Below, piece after piece: positions 26,790-35,980 of a DNA stretch of 49,552 bases. The stretch is from Nitrososphaera sp. GTDB taxonomy: Archaea; Thermoproteota; Nitrososphaeria; Nitrososphaerales; Nitrososphaeraceae. The first letter of the stretch is position 1. The number at the start of each line of letters is the position of its first letter. Below the pieces are notes generated by a model, which saw only the letters and a program-made list of their open reading frames with translations, searched no databases and was not told the DNA's origin. The translations under genes and the position numbers were made by a program. The stretch is from NCBI GenBank assembly GCA_039938515.1, contig JBDUUL010000018.1, positions 1 to 49,552 of the forward strand. The letters run 5' to 3'.

Positions 26790-27860
26790 GTGGTAAATAA
26801 AACAGTACTTGTCACTGCCGCCGGGAGCATCGTCTCGCAGGGCATAATCAAGGCGTTGAGGCTAGCCAACAAGACGGTTCATGAAACAAATGCCGTCAAC
26901 TACTCGATAGTCGCCACAGACATGAGCCCAACGGCCGCAGGGCTGTACAGGAGCGACTCTGGGCATATTGTTCCGCCGGCCAGTTCGGAGGGATTTATTG
27001 ATGCAGTTGTCAGTTTGTGCAGAAAGAATGCTGTGGACGCGATATTCATCGGCTCAGACGACGAACTACAAAAACTCGCAGAATCCAGAAAGCGGATTGA
27101 GAATGAGTCGGATGCGAAGCTGCTTGTATGCTCCAGCCAGGCGCTTTCAATAGCGCGCGATAAATGGCGCACTTTTGAGTTCTGCAGGGAAAAATCGCTC
27201 CCGGTTGCCCCGACGGCGTTGCCGGAAGATGCTGCGAGCCTGGCAAGCGAGTATGGCTATCCCCTGGTGGTGAAGCCTAGAGAGGGGTATGGGTCGGTGC
27301 ACGTTTACGTGGCAAAGTCTCAGGAGGAAGTCGGCCAGGCCATCGAACGGATCGAAGGCGCATCATGGAAACCCATTGTCCAGAAGTTCATCGGAGGGGA
27401 CGAGTTCACTTCTGGCGTAACGGTCGACCGGAGCGGCAAGTACGCGATGTCTTCAATTTCAATCCGAAAATTTCTAAAACATGGCCAGACCCACAAGGCG
27501 TTTATCGAGGACAACCAATCTGTACGAAAGTCTGCAGAAGAAGTCGCACTCAAGCTCGGAGTAGTCGGACCGGCAAACATCCAGGTGCGGATTGACTCAG
27601 GTCAGCCGGCGGTAATAGAGATAAACCCAAGGTTTTCTGCCACCTGCCCGATGAGGGCGGTAGCGGGTGTAAACGAGCCGGACATTGTCTTCCGCAACGC
27701 TGTCCTTGGGCAGGAGATAAAGGTCGAAGGGTTCAGAAAGCTAGTTTGCCTGCGCTACTGGAATGAAGTATACGTGCAAGAGTCGGCGGTAAAAGACGCA
27801 GAGCTTGCGGGATTCGTCGAAGATGGCAAGAGTGCGTCTTTTGTGCCCGACTACTTCTGA
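26790..27860 (+). CDS. ATP-grasp ligase, CarB/PylC-like
   Basis: A 356-residue ATP-grasp enzyme starting with GTG (the only start compatible with the N-terminal Rossmann-like VNKTVLVTAAGSIVSQGII). The pre-ATP-grasp domain ends near residue 110; the ATP-binding part has ARDKWRTFEFCREKSLPV, YPLVVKPREGYGS and the metal-binding PAVIEINPRFSATCP near residue 280. This is the form of stand-alone carbamoyl-phosphate-synthase-like ligases that join a carboxylate to an amine. The substrates are unknown. Position beside the glycan operon suggests amino-acid or acyl decoration of a sugar, which is inference only. Confidence 0.82.
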   Translation: MVNKTVLVTAAGSIVSQGIIKALRLANKTVHETNAVNYSIVATDMSPTAAGLYRSDSGHIVPPASSEGFIDAVVSLCRKNAVDAIFIGSDDELQKLAESRKRIENESDAKLLVCSSQALSIARDKWRTFEFCREKSLPVAPTALPEDAASLASEYGYPLVVKPREGYGSVHVYVAKSQEEVGQAIERIEGASWKPIVQKFIGGDEFTSGVTVDRSGKYAMSSISIRKFLKHGQTHKAFIEDNQSVRKSAEEVALKLGVVGPANIQVRIDSGQPAVIEINPRFSATCPMRAVAGVNEPDIVFRNAVLGQEIKVEGFRKLVCLRYWNEVYVQESAVKDAELAGFVEDGKSASFVPDYF

Positions 27861-27863
27861 TTT

Positions 27864-27909
27864 TTTGTTTGCCTATACGTAACGGGTTTGTTTGCCTATA
27901 CGTAACGGG
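27864..27909. repeat. Exact 23-bp tandem duplication at the end of the pelG-like gene
   Basis: TTTGTTTGCCTATACGTAACGGG occurs as 27864-27886 and again as 27887-27909 with no difference; in part, the copy is TTTGCCTATACGTAACGGG. The second copy contains the last codons and stop of the minus-strand flippase gene (ARYV-stop); the first copy repeats them just beyond the stop. It looks like a recent replication-slippage duplication in the convergent intergenic gap. Confidence 0.9.
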
Positions 27910-29539
27910 CAAACAGCCTGCTAGCAGCCTTTTTCAGTGTCTCTGACATTACGATCGAGCTTGTAATCGCGGCGAGAGTCGTGCCTGCAAGGTATCCCAG
28001 GGTTATCTTTTCAAAGCCGAACAAGACGGCCATTATCACTCCCCCGGCAATCACTGTCGCGGCTGCAAGGATTGAGATTATGGCAAGCTCCTTCGTTCTG
28101 CCCAGAAAGATCATAAATATTGCGTTTGCAGCAAAGACTGAGAGCATTACCGCGCCTGCTGAAGCATACATCAGAATCCGGTGGCTGACCTCGTTGCCTC
28201 CGATCCTCTCAAGGATAGCAGGGCCGACGACCAAACTCAACAGCGCCGCCACGGAGATTGATACCACCAGGGTCGACACCAGCGTCTTGGCGTAGCTGCG
28301 CCTTATGAACCGGTCAACCTTTCTTATTTCCCGCACCCGCAGGCGTATTGCCTTGTTGTGAGCCATCGCGTATATTGGCTCTGTAAGTATGTATTGAAGG
28401 ATGGCGACGGGTATTATTATGAGAAGCGCCAGATCCGCCCCTGCGTGATACACGGAATTGAAGGCAAGAGGCAGTTGTGCTCCGTTGCTTGCAGTCACTG
28501 TGTGCGGGTTGAAGATCCATGAAAGAATCCTGTCTGCGAATATTATTATGAAGTAGCAGCTTCCGTAAAGAAAGTACGGGAGAGACTCCCAGAGCTGGAC
28601 TGAGTATCGCGATGTCAGCGTTTTGTCGTTTACAGTAAGCGGGCTGTAAAAGTGGGGGGCGTTTCTGGCAACTATGGCGGTAGTGCTGCCTGCAAGCAGC
28701 CTGTGATGATAGTATGCTGCAAAGCCGGAGAGGACGGCAAATGCAGATCCCAGTGCCGCTAGGTACCTTGCAGTCACGTCAGGGATTGTCGGTTGCAGCA
28801 AGTAGAACAGGCCCAGGACCACGGCGAAGGCAATCGAGTAGGATATGGCGATCTGGCGAAGCTTCTTCATTGCATAGAGAACGACATAGCTCAGCCGGTG
28901 GAGCGAGATGGTGACCATTCCTATCGTGGCGATGGAGGCAAGCTGCACGGGTAGCGACCAGTTCTCTGCTGCAAGGTACACAAGGGCTACGGCAACGGAT
29001 AGAATCGCGCCAGCTAGTGCATAGTTTCTCTTGATGCTTCTGCGCACTTCGCCGACATTTGTCTGCGAATAGTAGAATGAAAACAGCCGGTGGAGATTCT
29101 GGGCCATTCCTTCGGTGATTGCGAGCCCCGTAAAGACGCCGGCAAGAAATGCCGTGGTTACGGCGGCAGGCAGTCCCCAGGCCATCCAAAGGGAAACGCC
29201 GGCAACCGCGAGCAGAACGAGCGATCCGATCCAGGGGAACATCATTGTCAGGCTTTCCTTCAGGCGCCTGGTCTTGCTTGACACCGCGAGTTTGCCGGCG
29301 GACCAGTCGATCTCTTTTTCCTCATACGCATCGACAAAGTCATAGACGTATCTCCCAAGGGCTTCAAGGTTTTCAAAACCGTGCTTCTTGGCATCATTAT
29401 CGTTGTATCCGAGGACCTCGAGGAGTACTACTACATCGGCCATGTTGTTCACGTTAGACTGTATCTCTGCTATTGAACGGGCAATCCTGTTGGCAAAGGC
29501 TTTAGACGACGCGGACTGGCCGGCTGCTTCCTGTGCCAT
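27896..29539 (-). CDS. PelG-like polysaccharide flippase
   Basis: A 547-residue integral membrane protein with about 12 membrane segments, preceded by a cytoplasmic domain of about 100 residues (IAEIQSNVNNMADVVVLLEV; RYVYDFVDAYEEKEID). PelG-type MOP transporters move Pel polysaccharide across the membrane; shared traits include GSCYFIIIFADRILSWIFNP, with the acidic residue in a membrane helix, followed by a long loop and LALLIIIPVAILQYIL. A strong Shine-Dalgarno (GGAGGAGGTG) lies 6 nt before the ATG, which directly abuts the epimerase stop. The N-terminal domain is extra compared with bacterial PelG. Confidence 0.78.
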   Translation of the reverse strand: MAQEAAGQSASSKAFANRIARSIAEIQSNVNNMADVVVLLEVLGYNDNDAKKHGFENLEALGRYVYDFVDAYEEKEIDWSAGKLAVSSKTRRLKESLTMMFPWIGSLVLLAVAGVSLWMAWGLPAAVTTAFLAGVFTGLAITEGMAQNLHRLFSFYYSQTNVGEVRRSIKRNYALAGAILSVAVALVYLAAENWSLPVQLASIATIGMVTISLHRLSYVVLYAMKKLRQIAISYSIAFAVVLGLFYLLQPTIPDVTARYLAALGSAFAVLSGFAAYYHHRLLAGSTTAIVARNAPHFYSPLTVNDKTLTSRYSVQLWESLPYFLYGSCYFIIIFADRILSWIFNPHTVTASNGAQLPLAFNSVYHAGADLALLIIIPVAILQYILTEPIYAMAHNKAIRLRVREIRKVDRFIRRSYAKTLVSTLVVSISVAALLSLVVGPAILERIGGNEVSHRILMYASAGAVMLSVFAANAIFMIFLGRTKELAIISILAAATVIAGGVIMAVLFGFEKITLGYLAGTTLAAITSSIVMSETLKKAASRLFARYV

Positions 29540-30529
29540 CTAAGCCACCTCCTCCGGGGCAGTGATTCTGGCAGCAGGCCTCTGCGTTTCTCGCCGGGCT
29601 GCCTCTATCACACTCTTGAGACCCTCCTGGACTGCGAAGCGGGGCTTGTAGCCTAGCACACGCTGGATCTTGTCTATTGAGGCTACCCCGAACTTCATGT
29701 CGCCGGCCCGGGAGGGCATGAACTGGCATGTCACGTCGGTGTATCCGATAAGACCCTTGATTGCCTGGACAAGTTCAAGTATGCTAGTTGCCCTGCCGGA
29801 AGCTACGTTGAATACTTCGCCAACCGCACTCTGCGAATCCATTGCCAGCATGTTGGCCTGCACGATGTCTTCGACATGGACAAAGTCCCGCACCTGTGTC
29901 CCGTCTCCATAGATAACAGGGTTTTCACCCTGAAGCATCTTGTTGACAAATGTCGTTATCACGCCGCTGTAGTCGCTGAGTCGCTGTCTGCGGCCATAGA
30001 CGTTAAAGTACCTTAGCGCTACCACCTCAAGTCCGTAGGTCATGTGGTATGCGTTCAGGTAATTTTCTACCGAGAGTTTTGACGCTCCGTATGGCGAGTT
30101 CGGCCTGCAGGACATAGCCTCCGAAGCGCTTGACCCTTCGATTATTCCATACACCGCAGCTGTAGACGCAAACACCAGCCTCTTTACCCCTCTGCTAACG
30201 CAGAAATTCAGGAGCTCAAGGGTTGTATTCACGTTCACATCGTGCACCAGCAGTGGGTGGGTTACCGATTTAGGCACGCTTGCGATTGCCGCTTCGTGAA
30301 AAACAATGTCGATATTGACATTGGGCAGAAGCGACTGCGCATTGCGTACATCGCCGACGATTACGTGCAGCATGCTAGATTCCTTGTGCGCGGCGAGGTT
30401 GTCAAGAGAGCCGGTCGTCAGGTTGTCAATAACGTATGTTTCAATTCCCCTCGAGAGAAGCTCGTCGACGATATGGCTTCCGATAAAACCTGCCCCTCCC
30501 GTTACAAGCGCCGTATTCACTGCTCTCAT
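29540..30529 (-). CDS. NAD-dependent UDP-sugar 4-epimerase (GalE/PelX-like)
   Basis: A 329-residue extended SDR epimerase. NAD motif GGAGFIGSHIVDEL at the N-terminus, FASTAAVYG, catalytic PNSPYGASKLSVENY (YxxxK), RYFNVYGRRQRL, and the substrate segment ENPVIYGDGTQVRDFVHVED. Enzymes of this type interconvert UDP-Glc/Gal or UDP-GlcNAc/GalNAc; bacterial pel loci contain a similar epimerase that supplies UDP-GalNAc. The ATG shares one base with the pelF-like stop (TAATG) and has a GGAGGTG ribosome site 8 nt upstream, so translation is coupled. Confidence 0.88.
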   Translation of the reverse strand: MRAVNTALVTGGAGFIGSHIVDELLSRGIETYVIDNLTTGSLDNLAAHKESSMLHVIVGDVRNAQSLLPNVNIDIVFHEAAIASVPKSVTHPLLVHDVNVNTTLELLNFCVSRGVKRLVFASTAAVYGIIEGSSASEAMSCRPNSPYGASKLSVENYLNAYHMTYGLEVVALRYFNVYGRRQRLSDYSGVITTFVNKMLQGENPVIYGDGTQVRDFVHVEDIVQANMLAMDSQSAVGEVFNVASGRATSILELVQAIKGLIGYTDVTCQFMPSRAGDMKFGVASIDKIQRVLGYKPRFAVQEGLKSVIEAARRETQRPAARITAPEEVA

Positions 30530-32016
30530 TATGCGTGCACCTCCGCAAACTGGACTGGAAGACTCTGCTTCTGCCCTGTCAGGCGCTCATACTGCTCCCG
30601 GTAGAGCCCCAGGGATTGTTCTATCGTGAACCCTTTGGTTGCCTTGTCAACCGCAGCCCTGCCGAAGTTCTCCCGCAATTGCTTGTCCTGCAGCAACTTG
30701 ACTATTGCTTCGGCAAGTTCCACCGGATGGCTGCTCCGCACGAGTAGCCCGCAGCCATCAAGCGCTTCCCTGATCCCGCCTACGTCCGTCGCCACAATTC
30801 CCCTCCCACAGGCCATCGCCTCGATAATAGCAAAGGGAAATCCTTCCGTTATGCTGCTGATTACGACCACGTCAGCAGAGTTGTATGCGACTTCCGGATC
30901 CTTGACCTTACCTACAAACTGGACATTCTCCTCCAGGTTAAGCGACTTTACGGCGTTGATGCAGCGGAGCGAGTATTCCAGATCAGTCGAGGACCCGTAA
31001 ATGAGACAGAGGATATCAGGGATCCTCTCCTTTACGCGCCGGATTGACTGGACGAGGTTAATGATGTCCTTGAATATGTCGACCCTGCCCACGCACGCCA
31101 CTGTAGGCCGGGCGTTTTCGGGCATGCTGATTGGCCGGAACTTTGAGACATCGACTCCATTGTAGATGACTTTAACCTTCGACGGATCCGCCCCGAGGCT
31201 TGTTTCCCATTTGGCATTGGCATAACAGACAGGGGAGATTACGTCCGAGGCCCAGTAGATGGTCCGGACAATGTTCTGAGAGAACTGCTTCCAAAAGATA
31301 TTGGACGGCTCGTCTCTCAGGTACGCATTGTAGTAAAGCAGGAGTTCCCGAAACGCGACACCGTGTTCAGTAATCATGACGGGCACGCCTGTTTCCATCT
31401 TTGCCGCGACGGCCATCATGGAGGGAAGCCATGCTAGAGACGAATGGATAAGGTCAACTTTGGGGATTTCGATGGCAAGGATCTGCATGTTTCTCTGGAT
31501 TATCTGAAACGCGGTCAGTGCCTCGCGAAGTGTCATCTCCCTGTAAAGCGGGTCTTGCTCAAGATGGCCCAGGAACGTCTCCCAGGCAATGGCACTTTCC
31601 ATGCATTTTCGGCTGTCGTGGTTGCGCAGGAACTTGTGAAGTTGAAGGATTGTATTGGCAAGCCCCGACGGGTCGGTGTTGCTCTCGAGAGCTTGGCTCA
31701 GGAATTTGTCAAAGAGCGGAACGAAGGACCGCGAGATTGCCCTGGAGTCCGTCCTAGCGATCTTGTCCAGCAGGCCGGAATTCTTTTCGCTGTAGAATTC
31801 CTCGAATCTGTGGGACCCGAACAGAGGGACATCGATTACTCTGGAGACGTTGGGGGGAACGGTATAGCGGCCATTCACGTTGGGGTTTGAGAGCATGTTG
31901 ACTACCGTAAAGTCAAAGTCGCTGAGGCTTTCGACGAGGAGCTTTTCCCAAGAGTATACTCCGCCGCTCGTCACGTTGGGATAGCTGTCCCAGTTAACTA
32001 ACAATACCTTTTTCAT
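30529..32016 (-). CDS. PelF-like family 4 glycosyltransferase
   Basis: A 495-residue cytoplasmic GT-B enzyme. PelF-type features: SGGVYSWEKLLVESL near residue 17, YTVPPNVSRVIDVP, a long helical insert, DLIHSSLAWLPSMM, VMITEHGVAFRELLLYYN, then the C-terminal GT4 domain with VIYNGVDVSKFRP, VACVGRVDIFKDI and the ExxxxxxxE motif SSITEGFPFAIIEAMACG. Bacterial PelF uses UDP-sugars to make the Pel polymer. ATG 32016 is chosen because AGGAGG sits 11 nt upstream; ATG 32025 would leave only 2 nt. It overlaps the upstream gene by about 23 bp. BshA, also a GT4 enzyme, is the alternative reading but is shorter. Confidence 0.83.
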   Translation of the reverse strand: MKKVLLVNWDSYPNVTSGGVYSWEKLLVESLSDFDFTVVNMLSNPNVNGRYTVPPNVSRVIDVPLFGSHRFEEFYSEKNSGLLDKIARTDSRAISRSFVPLFDKFLSQALESNTDPSGLANTILQLHKFLRNHDSRKCMESAIAWETFLGHLEQDPLYREMTLREALTAFQIIQRNMQILAIEIPKVDLIHSSLAWLPSMMAVAAKMETGVPVMITEHGVAFRELLLYYNAYLRDEPSNIFWKQFSQNIVRTIYWASDVISPVCYANAKWETSLGADPSKVKVIYNGVDVSKFRPISMPENARPTVACVGRVDIFKDIINLVQSIRRVKERIPDILCLIYGSSTDLEYSLRCINAVKSLNLEENVQFVGKVKDPEVAYNSADVVVISSITEGFPFAIIEAMACGRGIVATDVGGIREALDGCGLLVRSSHPVELAEAIVKLLQDKQLRENFGRAAVDKATKGFTIEQSLGLYREQYERLTGQKQSLPVQFAEVHA

Positions 32017-32659
32017 CGATTGCATTGCCTCCTGATAGGTCGAGTGACCTTGTCACCTCTGACGCGTCAAACGGGCCGTCCCCTTCGTCTGTCTGAAGAG
32101 ACCTTGGTTCGGGCCATAATGGAGCTTTATTTAAAAAGGCATCAACCTCGGCATCAAGCTCCGGAGCATTCTCGATTTTGACTCCGGCGCTCTTTACGTG
32201 TTTGGCATAATCCCGGAGTGTCTGCAAGTCGTCCTCGGCCTTTGCTCCGCTCGCAAACGGGTTTACCCGGGCTTCAAGCGCGCGCAGACTTTTTCGAATG
32301 CTTGAAGCAGAGTCATAATCGTCTGCAAGCACATAATTTTCCAATGCCTCGTTCATTGACCACATGGCTTCCCTAACAGACGCCGCCATCGTCTGCTGCG
32401 CGTTTAGCAGGTAGAGGTTCGCAGCATGCACGTAAAGCTTGTTTGCGCGCTCGCTGTTGCCAATCCGTGAGAGGCACCTCGCCGCGCAGGAGCAGCTAAG
32501 CGCATGTCTTATGATCGATTTTGCCTCCGCCGATTTCTGTGCGTCTTTCAAATAATAAGAAACGGCAGAAACCAGATCTCCGTCGTCTTCGGCCTTTATT
32601 GCATTGAACCAAAGACTAGACTCGTCTGTCAGCTTCTCTAGCCATGTTCTAACCTTCAT
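31994..32659 (-). CDS. Helical-repeat protein, first gene of the Pel-like operon
   Basis: A 221-residue protein, mostly alpha-helical, with TPR/SNAP-like repeats (WFNAIKAEDDGDLVSAVSYY; AARCLSRIGNSERANKLYVH; ALENYVLADDYDSASSIRKS). The C-terminal third is acidic and probably disordered. No signal peptide or membrane helix. As the first gene, overlapping pelF-like, it may scaffold the glycosyltransferase at the flippase; bacterial pel loci also contain TPR proteins, but those are membrane or periplasmic, so equivalence is not shown. Confidence 0.68.
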   Translation of the reverse strand: MKVRTWLEKLTDESSLWFNAIKAEDDGDLVSAVSYYLKDAQKSAEAKSIIRHALSCSCAARCLSRIGNSERANKLYVHAANLYLLNAQQTMAASVREAMWSMNEALENYVLADDYDSASSIRKSLRALEARVNPFASGAKAEDDLQTLRDYAKHVKSAGVKIENAPELDAEVDAFLNKAPLWPEPRSLQTDEGDGPFDASEVTRSLDLSGGNAIDEKGIVS

Positions 32660-32827: not shown

Positions 32828-33529
32828 GTGAACATTCTAGCAATTGGCGCACACCCGGATGACATCGAACTTGGTTGCGGCGGGCTTTTGATCAAGGCAG
32901 CTCGGCAAGGCCATGATGTGTACATGTACACGCTTACCAGGGGAGCAGTCTCGGGAGACCCGGCCCAGCGCTCGAAGGAACTCATGCAATCTGCCAAGTT
33001 CATCGGAGCAAAGGCCCTATGGATCGACAATTTTGACGACACGCGGCTGACTGCAGGAACAGAGCTGATAAACCACATCGAATTTTTCATAAACAAGGCT
33101 GATCCGGACATAATCATAACCCATTCGCTTGGAGATGTTCACCATGATCACAAGGCTGTCGCGTCCTCGACCATTGAGGCTGGCAGGTTTATCCCAAACA
33201 TAATGTCATATGAAATTCCGCTGACCAAGGAATTCAAGCCGCAGGTATTCTACGATATTTCAGACGTCGTCGACGAAAAGGTCGAGCTTATCAAGATATT
33301 CTGGTCCCAGCAGAGCAAGCTGTATCTGAAGGCCAATGCGATAAAGGGTCTGGCAGAATACAGGGCACTGCAGAGCAGGCTGAATACTTCCATAAACTAC
33401 GTCGAAGCTTTCGAGGTGCTAAAGCTTTGCTTTGGGAAGGAATTCAAGCTGTGGAAGGTTCCGAGCGAAAGAATTCCCAAGAACGAAGGGGCAGGCACCA
33501 GGCCCAACGAGATAATCGAGTTCGTCTAA
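32828..33529 (+). CDS. LmbE/PIG-L family N-deacetylase (BshB-like)
   Basis: A 233-residue zinc-dependent deacetylase of the LmbE family, which removes acetyl groups from GlcNAc-type sugars (PIG-L, MshB, BshB). Zinc site: AIGAHPDDIELGCGG at residues 5-19 with His and Asp pair, and DVHHDHKAV near residue 103 for the third ligand. Start is GTG 32828; the nearby ATG at 32806 is out of frame. The BshC-like gene starts only 22 bp after its stop, so the two are one operon, the same pairing idea as BshB-BshC in bacillithiol synthesis. Confidence 0.88.
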   Translation: MNILAIGAHPDDIELGCGGLLIKAARQGHDVYMYTLTRGAVSGDPAQRSKELMQSAKFIGAKALWIDNFDDTRLTAGTELINHIEFFINKADPDIIITHSLGDVHHDHKAVASSTIEAGRFIPNIMSYEIPLTKEFKPQVFYDISDVVDEKVELIKIFWSQQSKLYLKANAIKGLAEYRALQSRLNTSINYVEAFEVLKLCFGKEFKLWKVPSERIPKNEGAGTRPNEIIEFV

Positions 33530-33551
33530 GTCTGCGAGATCGTGATAACAG

Positions 33552-35231
33552 ATGGAAAATCCACAGACGACTGCAGCAGAAGCCGGCTCGATGGCCGGAG
33601 GCCAATCCCCAGTCGCAAAGTTTGCCGGGATAAACGATCCGGCCATCAGGGAATTTGTCTCAAGCATTCCCCATGACTTTCAGCAGACGGCAGCCATCCT
33701 AGCAGGTGCGAAATTTTTCGCCCCTGACAGGGTTTTGCAGAACAGGCTTGCCCTTGCCAGCAAGGCCCATTCCTTTCACGATGGCGCACAGACCAATAGC
33801 CAACGAGTGCAGGAAAGCATTTCCCGCCTGCAAGAGCCCGAAACCCTGGTCCTTGTTGCGACGCATCAACCCAATCTGTTCTCCTATGGCGGGATATTCA
33901 AGAAAGTAATACTGCTCGAAGCACTCAAGAGCGAAGTAGAGAGGCTTTCAGGCGGGCAGGTCAGCATCGTGAACCTCTTTCTCGTTGTCGACCATGACTT
34001 TCTGGACGAGACATGGATACGCGTGGCGCAGCTTCCGAGCCTGCAGAGCTCCGATGGCATCATGGACTTGCGTCTGCCCATCAAAGAGTCGCAGAGATGG
34101 AAGATGGTCTGCAACGTAATGCCGCCGGCGCATTCTGTCTTGTCTCACTGGAAGTCACAGTTGAAAAATTGGATAAGGTCCAACTCGCTGACAATCGCGG
34201 AGCGCAGGGAGCTATTTGGCAACCTGGAAGACCTCTGGTCCGAGTACGAGGCAGCTTACGCGGATGCCCGCTCCTACTCTGACCTTAACGCATTTTTCAT
34301 GTCGCGGATCGTAAATGCACGATGGAACTATTCGACAGTGTTTGTCAGGCTCTCTGAGCTGTCACAGATTTTCGCCGATGGATTTACTTTCCTGCTTGCC
34401 AATTTCAGAAAATATTCTGAAGGGCTTAGAAGGGCGGAGCGGGTCTGCATGGCCCATGGCATTGACACGGGCATAAGCGCGTCATCGCACCTTCACGCGC
34501 CGCTTTGGCTCCACTGCTCCTGCGGAAGCAAGACCTCGCCAAGACTCCGTGCAATTGGCAGAGAAATGGCCCTCGAGGGCTCGTGCATTTCGTGCGGCAA
34601 GCAGCTTCAGCTTGGCCTTGGAGACGCCGACCACATCGACATCAAGGAATCAGCGGGGCTGCTATCGCCAAAAGCAATCCCAATCCCGTTGCTTCTGGCA
34701 AGGGAAATCGGAATTTCAGGCTATGCCTCCGGCACCGGTGGACTAGGATACCTTGTCGATGGACAGGTGATAGCCAAGGAGCTGGGCATCAAGCTTCCCA
34801 CCACCCTTTTGTGGGCCTCCAAGGACAATTACATCGGCATAGGCCAGAGAGAGGCGGCTGCCGTATCGTCAAGGCTCAATGACCCTATCGTGTCGGCAAT
34901 AGCGGCGCTCAACGGAAGGCATCAGCGGCTTGAAAACCTCATACGGCCGCTCCTGCAAGAGCGTGCAGCAGCCGTCGGAACGCCGGGCGCCATGAAAGAC
35001 GTGCTTGACCGCATCTTTGCACTCAAGCAGCAGCAGAGAGAGATAAGATCGGAACTATCTGGTCTAACCAAAGTGCGTAACATACTGACATTGTCGCCTT
35101 GTTTTGTGGATTACGCGGTAAACTTTGGCGTCGAACACTCGGAAATGAAGTGGAGAAAACACCTGGTCGAAAGGGGCTCTCTTGCCGGCTCGGTAATGAT
35201 GCAAGCAGCCAGCGTCGCGGCAGCGTCTTAG
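33552..35231 (+). CDS. BshC-like putative cysteine/amino-acid ligase with zinc ribbon
   Basis: A 559-residue protein. Residues 97-155 read like the BshC core: LVLVATHQPNLFSYGGIFKK followed by SIVNLFLVVDHDFLDETWI, matching BshC's 'VVTGQQ-GLxGGPLYTxxK' and 'FWIAxEDHDxxE' pattern. BshC adds Cys to GlcN-malate in bacillithiol synthesis. Unlike bacterial BshC it has a zinc-ribbon-like insert (C322, C324, C345, C348) and a coiled-coil toward the C-terminus (ALKQQQREIRSEL). The match is by eye and partial; another amine-acceptor ligase is possible. It follows an LmbE deacetylase, which would expose the amine to be ligated. Confidence 0.6.
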   Translation: MENPQTTAAEAGSMAGGQSPVAKFAGINDPAIREFVSSIPHDFQQTAAILAGAKFFAPDRVLQNRLALASKAHSFHDGAQTNSQRVQESISRLQEPETLVLVATHQPNLFSYGGIFKKVILLEALKSEVERLSGGQVSIVNLFLVVDHDFLDETWIRVAQLPSLQSSDGIMDLRLPIKESQRWKMVCNVMPPAHSVLSHWKSQLKNWIRSNSLTIAERRELFGNLEDLWSEYEAAYADARSYSDLNAFFMSRIVNARWNYSTVFVRLSELSQIFADGFTFLLANFRKYSEGLRRAERVCMAHGIDTGISASSHLHAPLWLHCSCGSKTSPRLRAIGREMALEGSCISCGKQLQLGLGDADHIDIKESAGLLSPKAIPIPLLLAREIGISGYASGTGGLGYLVDGQVIAKELGIKLPTTLLWASKDNYIGIGQREAAAVSSRLNDPIVSAIAALNGRHQRLENLIRPLLQERAAAVGTPGAMKDVLDRIFALKQQQREIRSELSGLTKVRNILTLSPCFVDYAVNFGVEHSEMKWRKHLVERGSLAGSVMMQAASVAAAS

Positions 35232-35307: not shown

Positions 35308-35610
35308 TTGCCATTAAATTCTGCCGGATGGAGCAACCGAGGGTGGCTTGAGATCATTGAGTTTATCCTTTTGATGTGTGAAGGGGGAGCCAGAAAGACC
35401 CATGTCATGTACAGGTGCAACCTGAATTCAAAACAAATCAACCAGTATCTGCAGTTTCTGCTCGACTCAAAAATGCTGGAAGTGACTCGAGAGCGACCAA
35501 ATTCGAAAAGATACATATACAAAACAACCGAGCTCGGAAAGAAGTTCATCGCGCATTACAAGGAGCTTGCAGACCTTTTCAGCAAGCCTCCGCCCGCATC
35601 CCTCACTTGA
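35308..35610 (+). CDS. Winged-helix DNA-binding protein 1
   Basis: A 100-residue winged-helix protein of the small archaeal Sso10a/PF14947-like kind: helix LEIIEFILLMCEGG, helix KTHVMYRCNLNSKQINQYLQFLL (recognition), wing MLEVTRERPNSKRYIYKTTELGKKF, and C-terminal helix AHYKELADLF. Start TTG at 35308; a TATA-like AGTATTAAAAG (35269-35279) lies about 30 nt upstream. A paralogue follows 70 bp downstream. Likely a local regulator. Confidence 0.8.
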   Translation: MPLNSAGWSNRGWLEIIEFILLMCEGGARKTHVMYRCNLNSKQINQYLQFLLDSKMLEVTRERPNSKRYIYKTTELGKKFIAHYKELADLFSKPPPASLT

Positions 35611-35680
35611 TACGATATTTCTAGCGGATAGTTCCACTCTAATTAAAAGAAATGTCTGAATGGATTTAACGTTCAGGTCA

Positions 35681-35980
35681 ATGAAGAATCGCAGCCGCTA
35701 CGAGGTTATAGCAGCAATTTTAAAGGCAGCCAGTAAGGAAGAAACGCGAACCAAAATAATGTACAAGGCCATGCTTAGCAACGACCAGTGTAAGCTTTAT
35801 CTCGACTCGTTGATGCGCAGCGGCTTGATGCAAGAGGTAGCAAATGGCGAGAAGACGGTGTACAGGGTCACGCAGAAAGGAAACAAGTTCCTGTCTTATT
35901 ATGACCAGATGAAAGAGCTTCTGCCTGTGGGTATCGAGGAGAACCTGGCAGGCGAATACTTTCATCATGTAAGCAGCTAG
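35681..35980 (+). CDS. Winged-helix DNA-binding protein 2 (paralogue)
   Basis: A 99-residue paralogue of the preceding gene with the same layout: NRSRYEVIAAILKAAS, TKIMYKAMLSNDQCKLYLDSL, wing with GEKTVYRVTQKGNKFLSYYD. The ATG at 35681 is chosen because AATTAAAAG at 35641-35649 is about 30-35 nt upstream; ATG 35660 is too close. The pair probably arose by tandem duplication and could form homo- or heterodimers. Its target is unknown; the adjacent glycan/BshC-like genes and the GvpD-like gene are candidates. Confidence 0.8.
   Translation: MKNRSRYEVIAAILKAASKEETRTKIMYKAMLSNDQCKLYLDSLMRSGLMQEVANGEKTVYRVTQKGNKFLSYYDQMKELLPVGIEENLAGEYFHHVSS

Follow-up and report, generated by a model that had tools for sequence, protein, structure and literature searches.

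Regarding the coupling of a sugar deacetylase with a BshC-type enzyme, the established example is bacillithiol synthesis, which ends with the deacetylase and BshC steps. For WbqC, a protein of sugar-modification and surface glycan loci, a role as a glycine transferase has been suggested; our literature searches on WbqC function, and those on a link of BshC or PIG-L to polysaccharides, returned nothing specific, and the literature that we searched did not mention Pel genes in archaea. In a published survey, a complete bacillithiol pathway was not found in archaea (PMC12719100), and another did not detect BSH in archaea and placed the homologues of BshA and BshC mainly in Asgard (PMC7278568). 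Genes for ergothioneine have been reported in ammonia-oxidizing archaea (AOA; PMC7554672), and the statement in an earlier note on the present DNA, that AOA thiols had not been described in the form it proposed, is thus to be qualified, in that a thiol route has, at least in part, been described for these archaea.

In the present study, the window, i.e., the whole stretch of 49,552 nucleotides from Nitrososphaera sp. that was analyzed, was found to encode an LmbE deacetylase and a BshC-like protein on the same strand, with the gap of 22 bp between the two genes that had been described previously. The features of the locus are as follows.

26790-27860, + strand: ATP-grasp carboxylate-amine ligase-like protein of the PRK12767 group (NF009402, 295 bits, cutoff 218)
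27896-29539, - strand: PelG-like polysaccharide exporter (PF16933, 49.1 bits, cutoff 29)
29540-30529, - strand: NAD-dependent sugar epimerase, GalE-like (PF01370, 6.5e-65; TIGR01179, 231 bits, just below the cutoff of 262)
30529-32025, - strand: PelF-type GT4 glycosyltransferase (NF038011 PelF, 148.3 bits, cutoff 100)
31994-32659, - strand: TPR-like protein, at the head of the divergent Pel-like operon (weak TPR match; gene order conserved in 7 genomes)
32828-33529, + strand: PIG-L/LmbE family N-deacetylase, 233 aa, GTG start (PF02585, 1.4e-23)
33552-35231, + strand: ligase-like protein with a predicted BshC fold and a zinc ribbon, 559 aa, ATG start (PF10079, AlphaFold model, Foldseek match to 4wbd)
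33864-33881, + strand: HQPNLF motif, residues 105-110, invariant and similar in form to the WbqC motif (alignments A2 and A3)
33990-34001, + strand: DHDF motif, residues 147-150, aligned with EDHD of BshC
34506-34595, + strand: Cys4 zinc ribbon (W319, C322, C324, K327, C345 and C348 invariant, 32 homologues aligned)

The product of the first gene carries both of the zinc motifs that had been assigned to it, AHPDD at residues 8-12 (nt 32849-32863) and HHDH at residues 105-108 (nt 33140-33151), and belongs to the PIG-L family, the PF02585 cutoff of 28 being exceeded with 84 bits. Its top NCBIfam model was that of BshB1 (TIGR04001), at 95 bits under the cutoff of 182.5, and the nearest solved structures were LmbE-related 2ixd, TT1542 (1uan), diacetylchitobiose deacetylases (8bgn) and BshB1 (6p2t). 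Across six genomes, the identity to orthologues was 88-91% for LmbE, 45-50% for its operon partner and 42-80% for the other neighbours, and LmbE was conserved above most of the neighbouring genes compared. An unusually fast evolution of the BshC-like protein was considered and rejected because its identity is near the local background and LmbE is the conserved outlier.

The core motifs attributed to the second protein, ATHQPNLFSYGGIFKK at residues 103-118 and LFLVVDHDFLDE at residues 142-153, are present as quoted. A search with the BshC family profile, as had been recommended, gave a mixed result: the match of PF10079 to the window protein alone was weak (E 0.001, 18.9 bits, cutoff 27), but 18 of 20 homologues matched it independently (best 1e-9). 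The PF10079 cutoff was exceeded in 4 of 150 genomes of the class, and TIGR03998 gave the window protein 15.3 bits, with a cutoff of 265.8. The comparison of a predicted structure with BshC was clearer. An AlphaFold model built from A2, an alignment of 32 homologues, reached a pLDDT of 91.7 and a pTM of 0.90, and its top Foldseek match was B. subtilis BshC (4wbd), over the whole length (E 1.2e-16, prob 1.00, TM 0.62/0.64, 566 columns). According to this model, the second protein is of the BshC fold, with the Rossmann core and the C-terminal coiled coil of the BshC architecture kept whole. The second match by fold was class I LysRS (1irx, Foldseek 1.6e-8), the TM scores to aminoacyl-tRNA synthetases (aaRS) being low, and a viral fold library gave one strong match without a name, the rest being tRNA synthetases. 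At the level of profiles, 4wbd ranked first among PDB sequences with A2 (E 0.0011) and was not recovered with the narrower A1 profile. The A2/4wbd alignment pairs HQPNLF with GQQAGLL, DHDF with EDHD and SGTGGxGY with AGPGEINY. The Cys4 insert, proposed earlier as a zinc ribbon, is real, C322, C324, C345 and C348 being invariant in the 32 homologues, and strand pairs are seen at residues 318-358 of the model. R65, HQPNLF, K118, G394 and D425 are invariant across distant archaea in A2, which suggests that the BshC-like protein has not decayed.

A relation to WbqC, which the earlier note did not mention, was detected when the BshC-like profile was compared using hhalign with 16 archaeal WbqC sequences (prob 95, E 2.9e-8, N-terminal half). 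The WbqC signature HQPxxxPxxGxFxK, in its looser form HQPxxxxxxGxxxK, is common to the BshC-like protein; PF08889 (WbqC) was absent among the Pfam matches of A1 members, the likeness being at the profile-profile level only, and the WbqC profile found no relative in the PDB. Judged from their neighbours, the BshC-like genes occupy the setting of WbqC genes, namely sugar-modification or surface glycan loci. On a Mycobacterium branderi plasmid (L165:6001-7394), the WbqC and PIG-L genes of an amino-sugar cluster overlap by a few bases, and a Mariluticola plasmid record has both in one pseudaminic-acid-type cluster; in two further bacterial plasmid records, no PIG-L gene adjoined WbqC. The neighbourhoods of WbqC with PIG-L and of the BshC-like protein with LmbE show that a deacetylase and a BshC/WbqC-type protein form a recurring cassette in sugar-modification loci. 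The genome of the window also has a true WbqC (G000:C1:423844-424503, 230 bits), at a locus (L076, L132) with an epimerase, a DegT aminotransferase, an APS-kinase-like protein and a 435-aa LmbE fusion.

The arrangement of the genes varies. In layout A (the window and six relatives), the BshC-like and LmbE genes are divergent from TPR-PelF-GalE-PelG, which is followed by the ATP-grasp gene. In layout B (other genera), ATP-grasp A is divergent from PHP, BshC-like and ATP-grasp B genes, and LmbE is convergent; this conserved five-gene cluster occurs in Nitrosocosmicus and other genera (L057, L058, L059, L104, L107 and others), and its PHP gene encodes a PHP phosphoesterase-like protein. Other layouts combine LmbE and BshC-like genes with GT2, DegT, hexapeptide transferase and GNAT genes. 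The ATP-grasp protein at 26790-27860, also missing from the earlier account, was shown by a tree to be the orthologue of ATP-grasp B, the gene of which immediately follows that of the BshC-like protein in other genera. Strong orthologues occurred in 16 of the 21 relatives with the BshC-like gene and in 0 of the 40 without it (Fisher 1e-10 ignoring relatedness, 7e-4 within the genus alone). Five genomes had the BshC-like gene without a strong ATP-grasp; three of these are incomplete (G008, G025 and G030, 69-75%) and two have other layouts (G035 and G043). In layout A, genes for two small winged-helix proteins (35308-35980 in the window) follow the BshC-like gene, and, since their relatives also lie near the pair in L120, L124 and L125, they may be regulators of the pair.

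The BshC-like family was present in 21 of 61 relatives, 20 of which belong to the same family (Nitrososphaeraceae). A second collection, partly from the same genomes, comprised 42 archaeal loci with a BshC-like gene, including Bathyarchaeota, Methanomethylicus, Hadesarchaea, Thermoplasmata, Euryarchaeota and Aenigmatarchaeota records; these were obtained with an alignment query, a single-sequence query of the contigs having matched none. Eleven loci lacked LmbE, five of which end at a contig edge where LmbE would sit (contig tails were checked by tblastn), leaving 37 informative loci. LmbE lay within 3 kb of the BshC-like gene in 31 of these and was not found beside it in the other six (L095, L098, L101, L108, L112 and L130). 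Considering that approximately 0.8% per locus is expected by chance (3 LmbE-like genes in 2.56 Mb), this pairing is not a chance occurrence. Pairing in a single genome, which would have spoken against the proposal, was not what we observed, as the pair spans several archaeal lineages.

The BshC-like proteins of Nitrososphaeraceae all fall into a single clade (100/100), and their LmbE partners belong to different LmbE subfamilies, identity being 88-91% within layout A and about 36% between layouts A and B. At one locus (L113), a BshC-like gene of the layout-B lineage lies beside an A-type LmbE gene. Such a renewal of the linkage with different LmbE genes argues strongly for consecutive steps of a single pathway, and, together with co-location across lineages, it makes a shared pathway very likely. 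Exceptions exist: G026 (99% complete) has the BshC-like, PHP and ATP-grasp genes and no LmbE match, some layout-B loci are without LmbE, and G022, G028 and G031 have a layout-B LmbE without the BshC-like gene, and thus each of the two may have other partners. A DUF2099 gene stands ahead of the BshC-like gene in two euryarchaeal loci (L129:4852-5742 and L130:3328-4350), neither of which has LmbE nearby.

The genes at 27896-32659 (- strand) constitute an archaeal Pel-like exopolysaccharide operon, the order of which is kept in seven related genomes; its PelF and PelG proteins score above the cutoffs of the corresponding families of the Pel exopolysaccharide system. At other loci, the BshC-like gene has DegT, GT2, NDP-sugar transferase, hexapeptide and GNAT genes as neighbours, or UDP-sugar dehydrogenase, GT2 and epimerase genes. 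Since glycan genes are common in these genomes, some of these neighbours may be coincidental. Elsewhere in the genome of the window (L075:8829-10619, G000:C3), an LmbE gene adjoins that of an N-acyltransferase which is LpxD-like by sequence reading, and these two would make up a parallel deacetylation and re-acylation unit.

On balance, and with moderate confidence, we favor the view that the two enzymes exchange, in two steps, the N-acyl group of an amino sugar of a surface polymer. An N-acetylhexosamine, which may be free, nucleotide-linked or lipid-linked, would be stripped of its acetyl group by LmbE; the BshC-like protein, which has a Rossmann fold of the class I aaRS type, would then use ATP to activate a carboxylate, most likely that of an amino acid, and join the activated acid to the freed amine. 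In Nitrososphaeraceae, the ATP-grasp ligase would probably add a further amide bond. The decorated sugar may then enter a surface polysaccharide or glycan, the likely consumer in the window being the Pel-like operon, which is transcribed divergently from the pair. The parts that we infer, with the chemistry taken from the protein families, are the formation of an amide bond, the identities of the amino acid and the sugar, the sequence of the steps and the connection with the polymer.

The first alternative offered by the earlier note was an archaeal bacillithiol-like low-molecular-weight thiol, with LmbE in the role of BshB and the second protein adding cysteine. The full-length BshC fold, the position of BshB1 as the top NCBIfam match of LmbE and the correspondence of the pair to the last half of bacillithiol synthesis are consistent with such a product; however, BshA was not found above its cutoff in the 41 relatives examined, two genomes with the BshC-like gene (G023, 90% complete, and G024, 94%) had no BshA-like match at all, and the remaining partner, BshB1/BshB2, is represented only by an LmbE below the BshB cutoffs. 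The bacilliredoxins BrxA/BrxB (PF06491) were detected in 0 of 41 genomes, a B. subtilis control being positive, and EgtD (ergothioneine) is present in the window genome, in agreement with the genes reported in AOA (PMC7554672). The HQP motif, as in WbqC, in place of GQQ and the published surveys without a complete archaeal pathway (PMC12719100) or BSH (PMC7278568) also argue against a thiol, which we regard as quite improbable. The BshC-like fold, the zinc ribbon and the coupling to LmbE have accordingly been retained from the earlier proposal, and its bacillithiol-like product has not. Because the neighbourhoods of the BshC-like genes are glycan loci, the amino-sugar ligation that it named as an alternative is favored, with a chemistry that we infer; the pair more likely serves the amino-sugar acylation of a surface glycan than thiol synthesis.

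A lipid head group is an equally improbable target. LmbE, which belongs to the PIG-L family, would deacetylate a glycolipid of the GlcNAc-archaetidylinositol type, as in the PIG-L reaction, and the resulting glucosamine would be aminoacylated by the BshC-like protein. A CDP-alcohol phosphatidyltransferase gene does lie near LmbE in layout-B genomes and G028, but it has housekeeping genes around it (S26e, NAD kinase and CTP synthase), and so this proximity may be local synteny only; moreover, the gene is absent beside the layout-A pair, and the operon neighbours that were examined in distant archaea included none. It is also unlikely that the second protein is a HUP-fold nucleotidyl- or other transferase, or has lost its activity, and is coupled to LmbE in some other modification of a sugar. 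Its identity of 14% to 4wbd, the low TM to aaRS and the replacement of GQQ by HQP point in that direction, while the residues invariant in distant archaea, the retention of the whole BshC architecture and the frequent pairing with a deacetylase that would free an amine point away from it.

Beyond the present locus, we tentatively raise the possibility of a widespread family of amino-sugar N-(amino)acyl ligases proper to archaea, which would form a branch of the BshC/WbqC superfamily with a zinc ribbon and a class I aaRS-like fold. In soil ammonia oxidizers, this family may act with LmbE and ATP-grasp in making a surface polysaccharide with aminoacyl or peptidyl substituents, in the window a Pel-like exopolymer. 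Most archaeal members sit under current family cutoffs, and the family connects BshC, a thiol enzyme, and WbqC, a glycan-locus protein, which have until now been treated apart; this suggests that amino-sugar acylation is a broader chemistry, of which BshC is one specialized form. For soil AOA, the biofilm matrix chemistry of which is little known, the family also offers a testable route to exopolysaccharides that bear amino acids, and archaeal BshC-like genes should not be read as evidence for bacillithiol.

In comparison with known systems, the archaeal protein resembles BshC (4wbd; PF10079/TIGR03998) in its full-length fold, DHD motif, glycine-rich GxGxxxY, C-terminal coiled coil and gene coupling to an LmbE/BshB deacetylase. 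It differs in being only 14% identical to 4wbd and usually under the family cutoffs, in having HQPN where BshC has GQQ and an extra Cys4 zinc ribbon, and in its glycan, not thiol, context without a BshA partner. With class I lysyl-tRNA synthetase (1irx) and the MshC-type aaRS-like ligases, it has the class I Rossmann catalytic core in common, although this relation is remote and no tRNA-binding role is evident. WbqC (PF08889) shares the HQP motif and has DegT, epimerase and PIG-L neighbours, but is shorter (approximately 220-280 aa), without the coiled coil and the zinc ribbon. The LmbE of the window has the AHPDD and HxDH metal motifs and PF02585 in common with BshB, MshB and diacetylchitobiose deacetylase, but is below the BshB1 family cutoff (95 vs 182.5 bits). 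The adjacent operon is similar to the Pel system in its PelF and PelG, both above cutoffs, and in its epimerase and TPR genes; PelA, PelB and PelD were not identified beside it by general profile searches, and the archaeon has a cytosolic LmbE in place of the periplasmic deacetylase of Pel.
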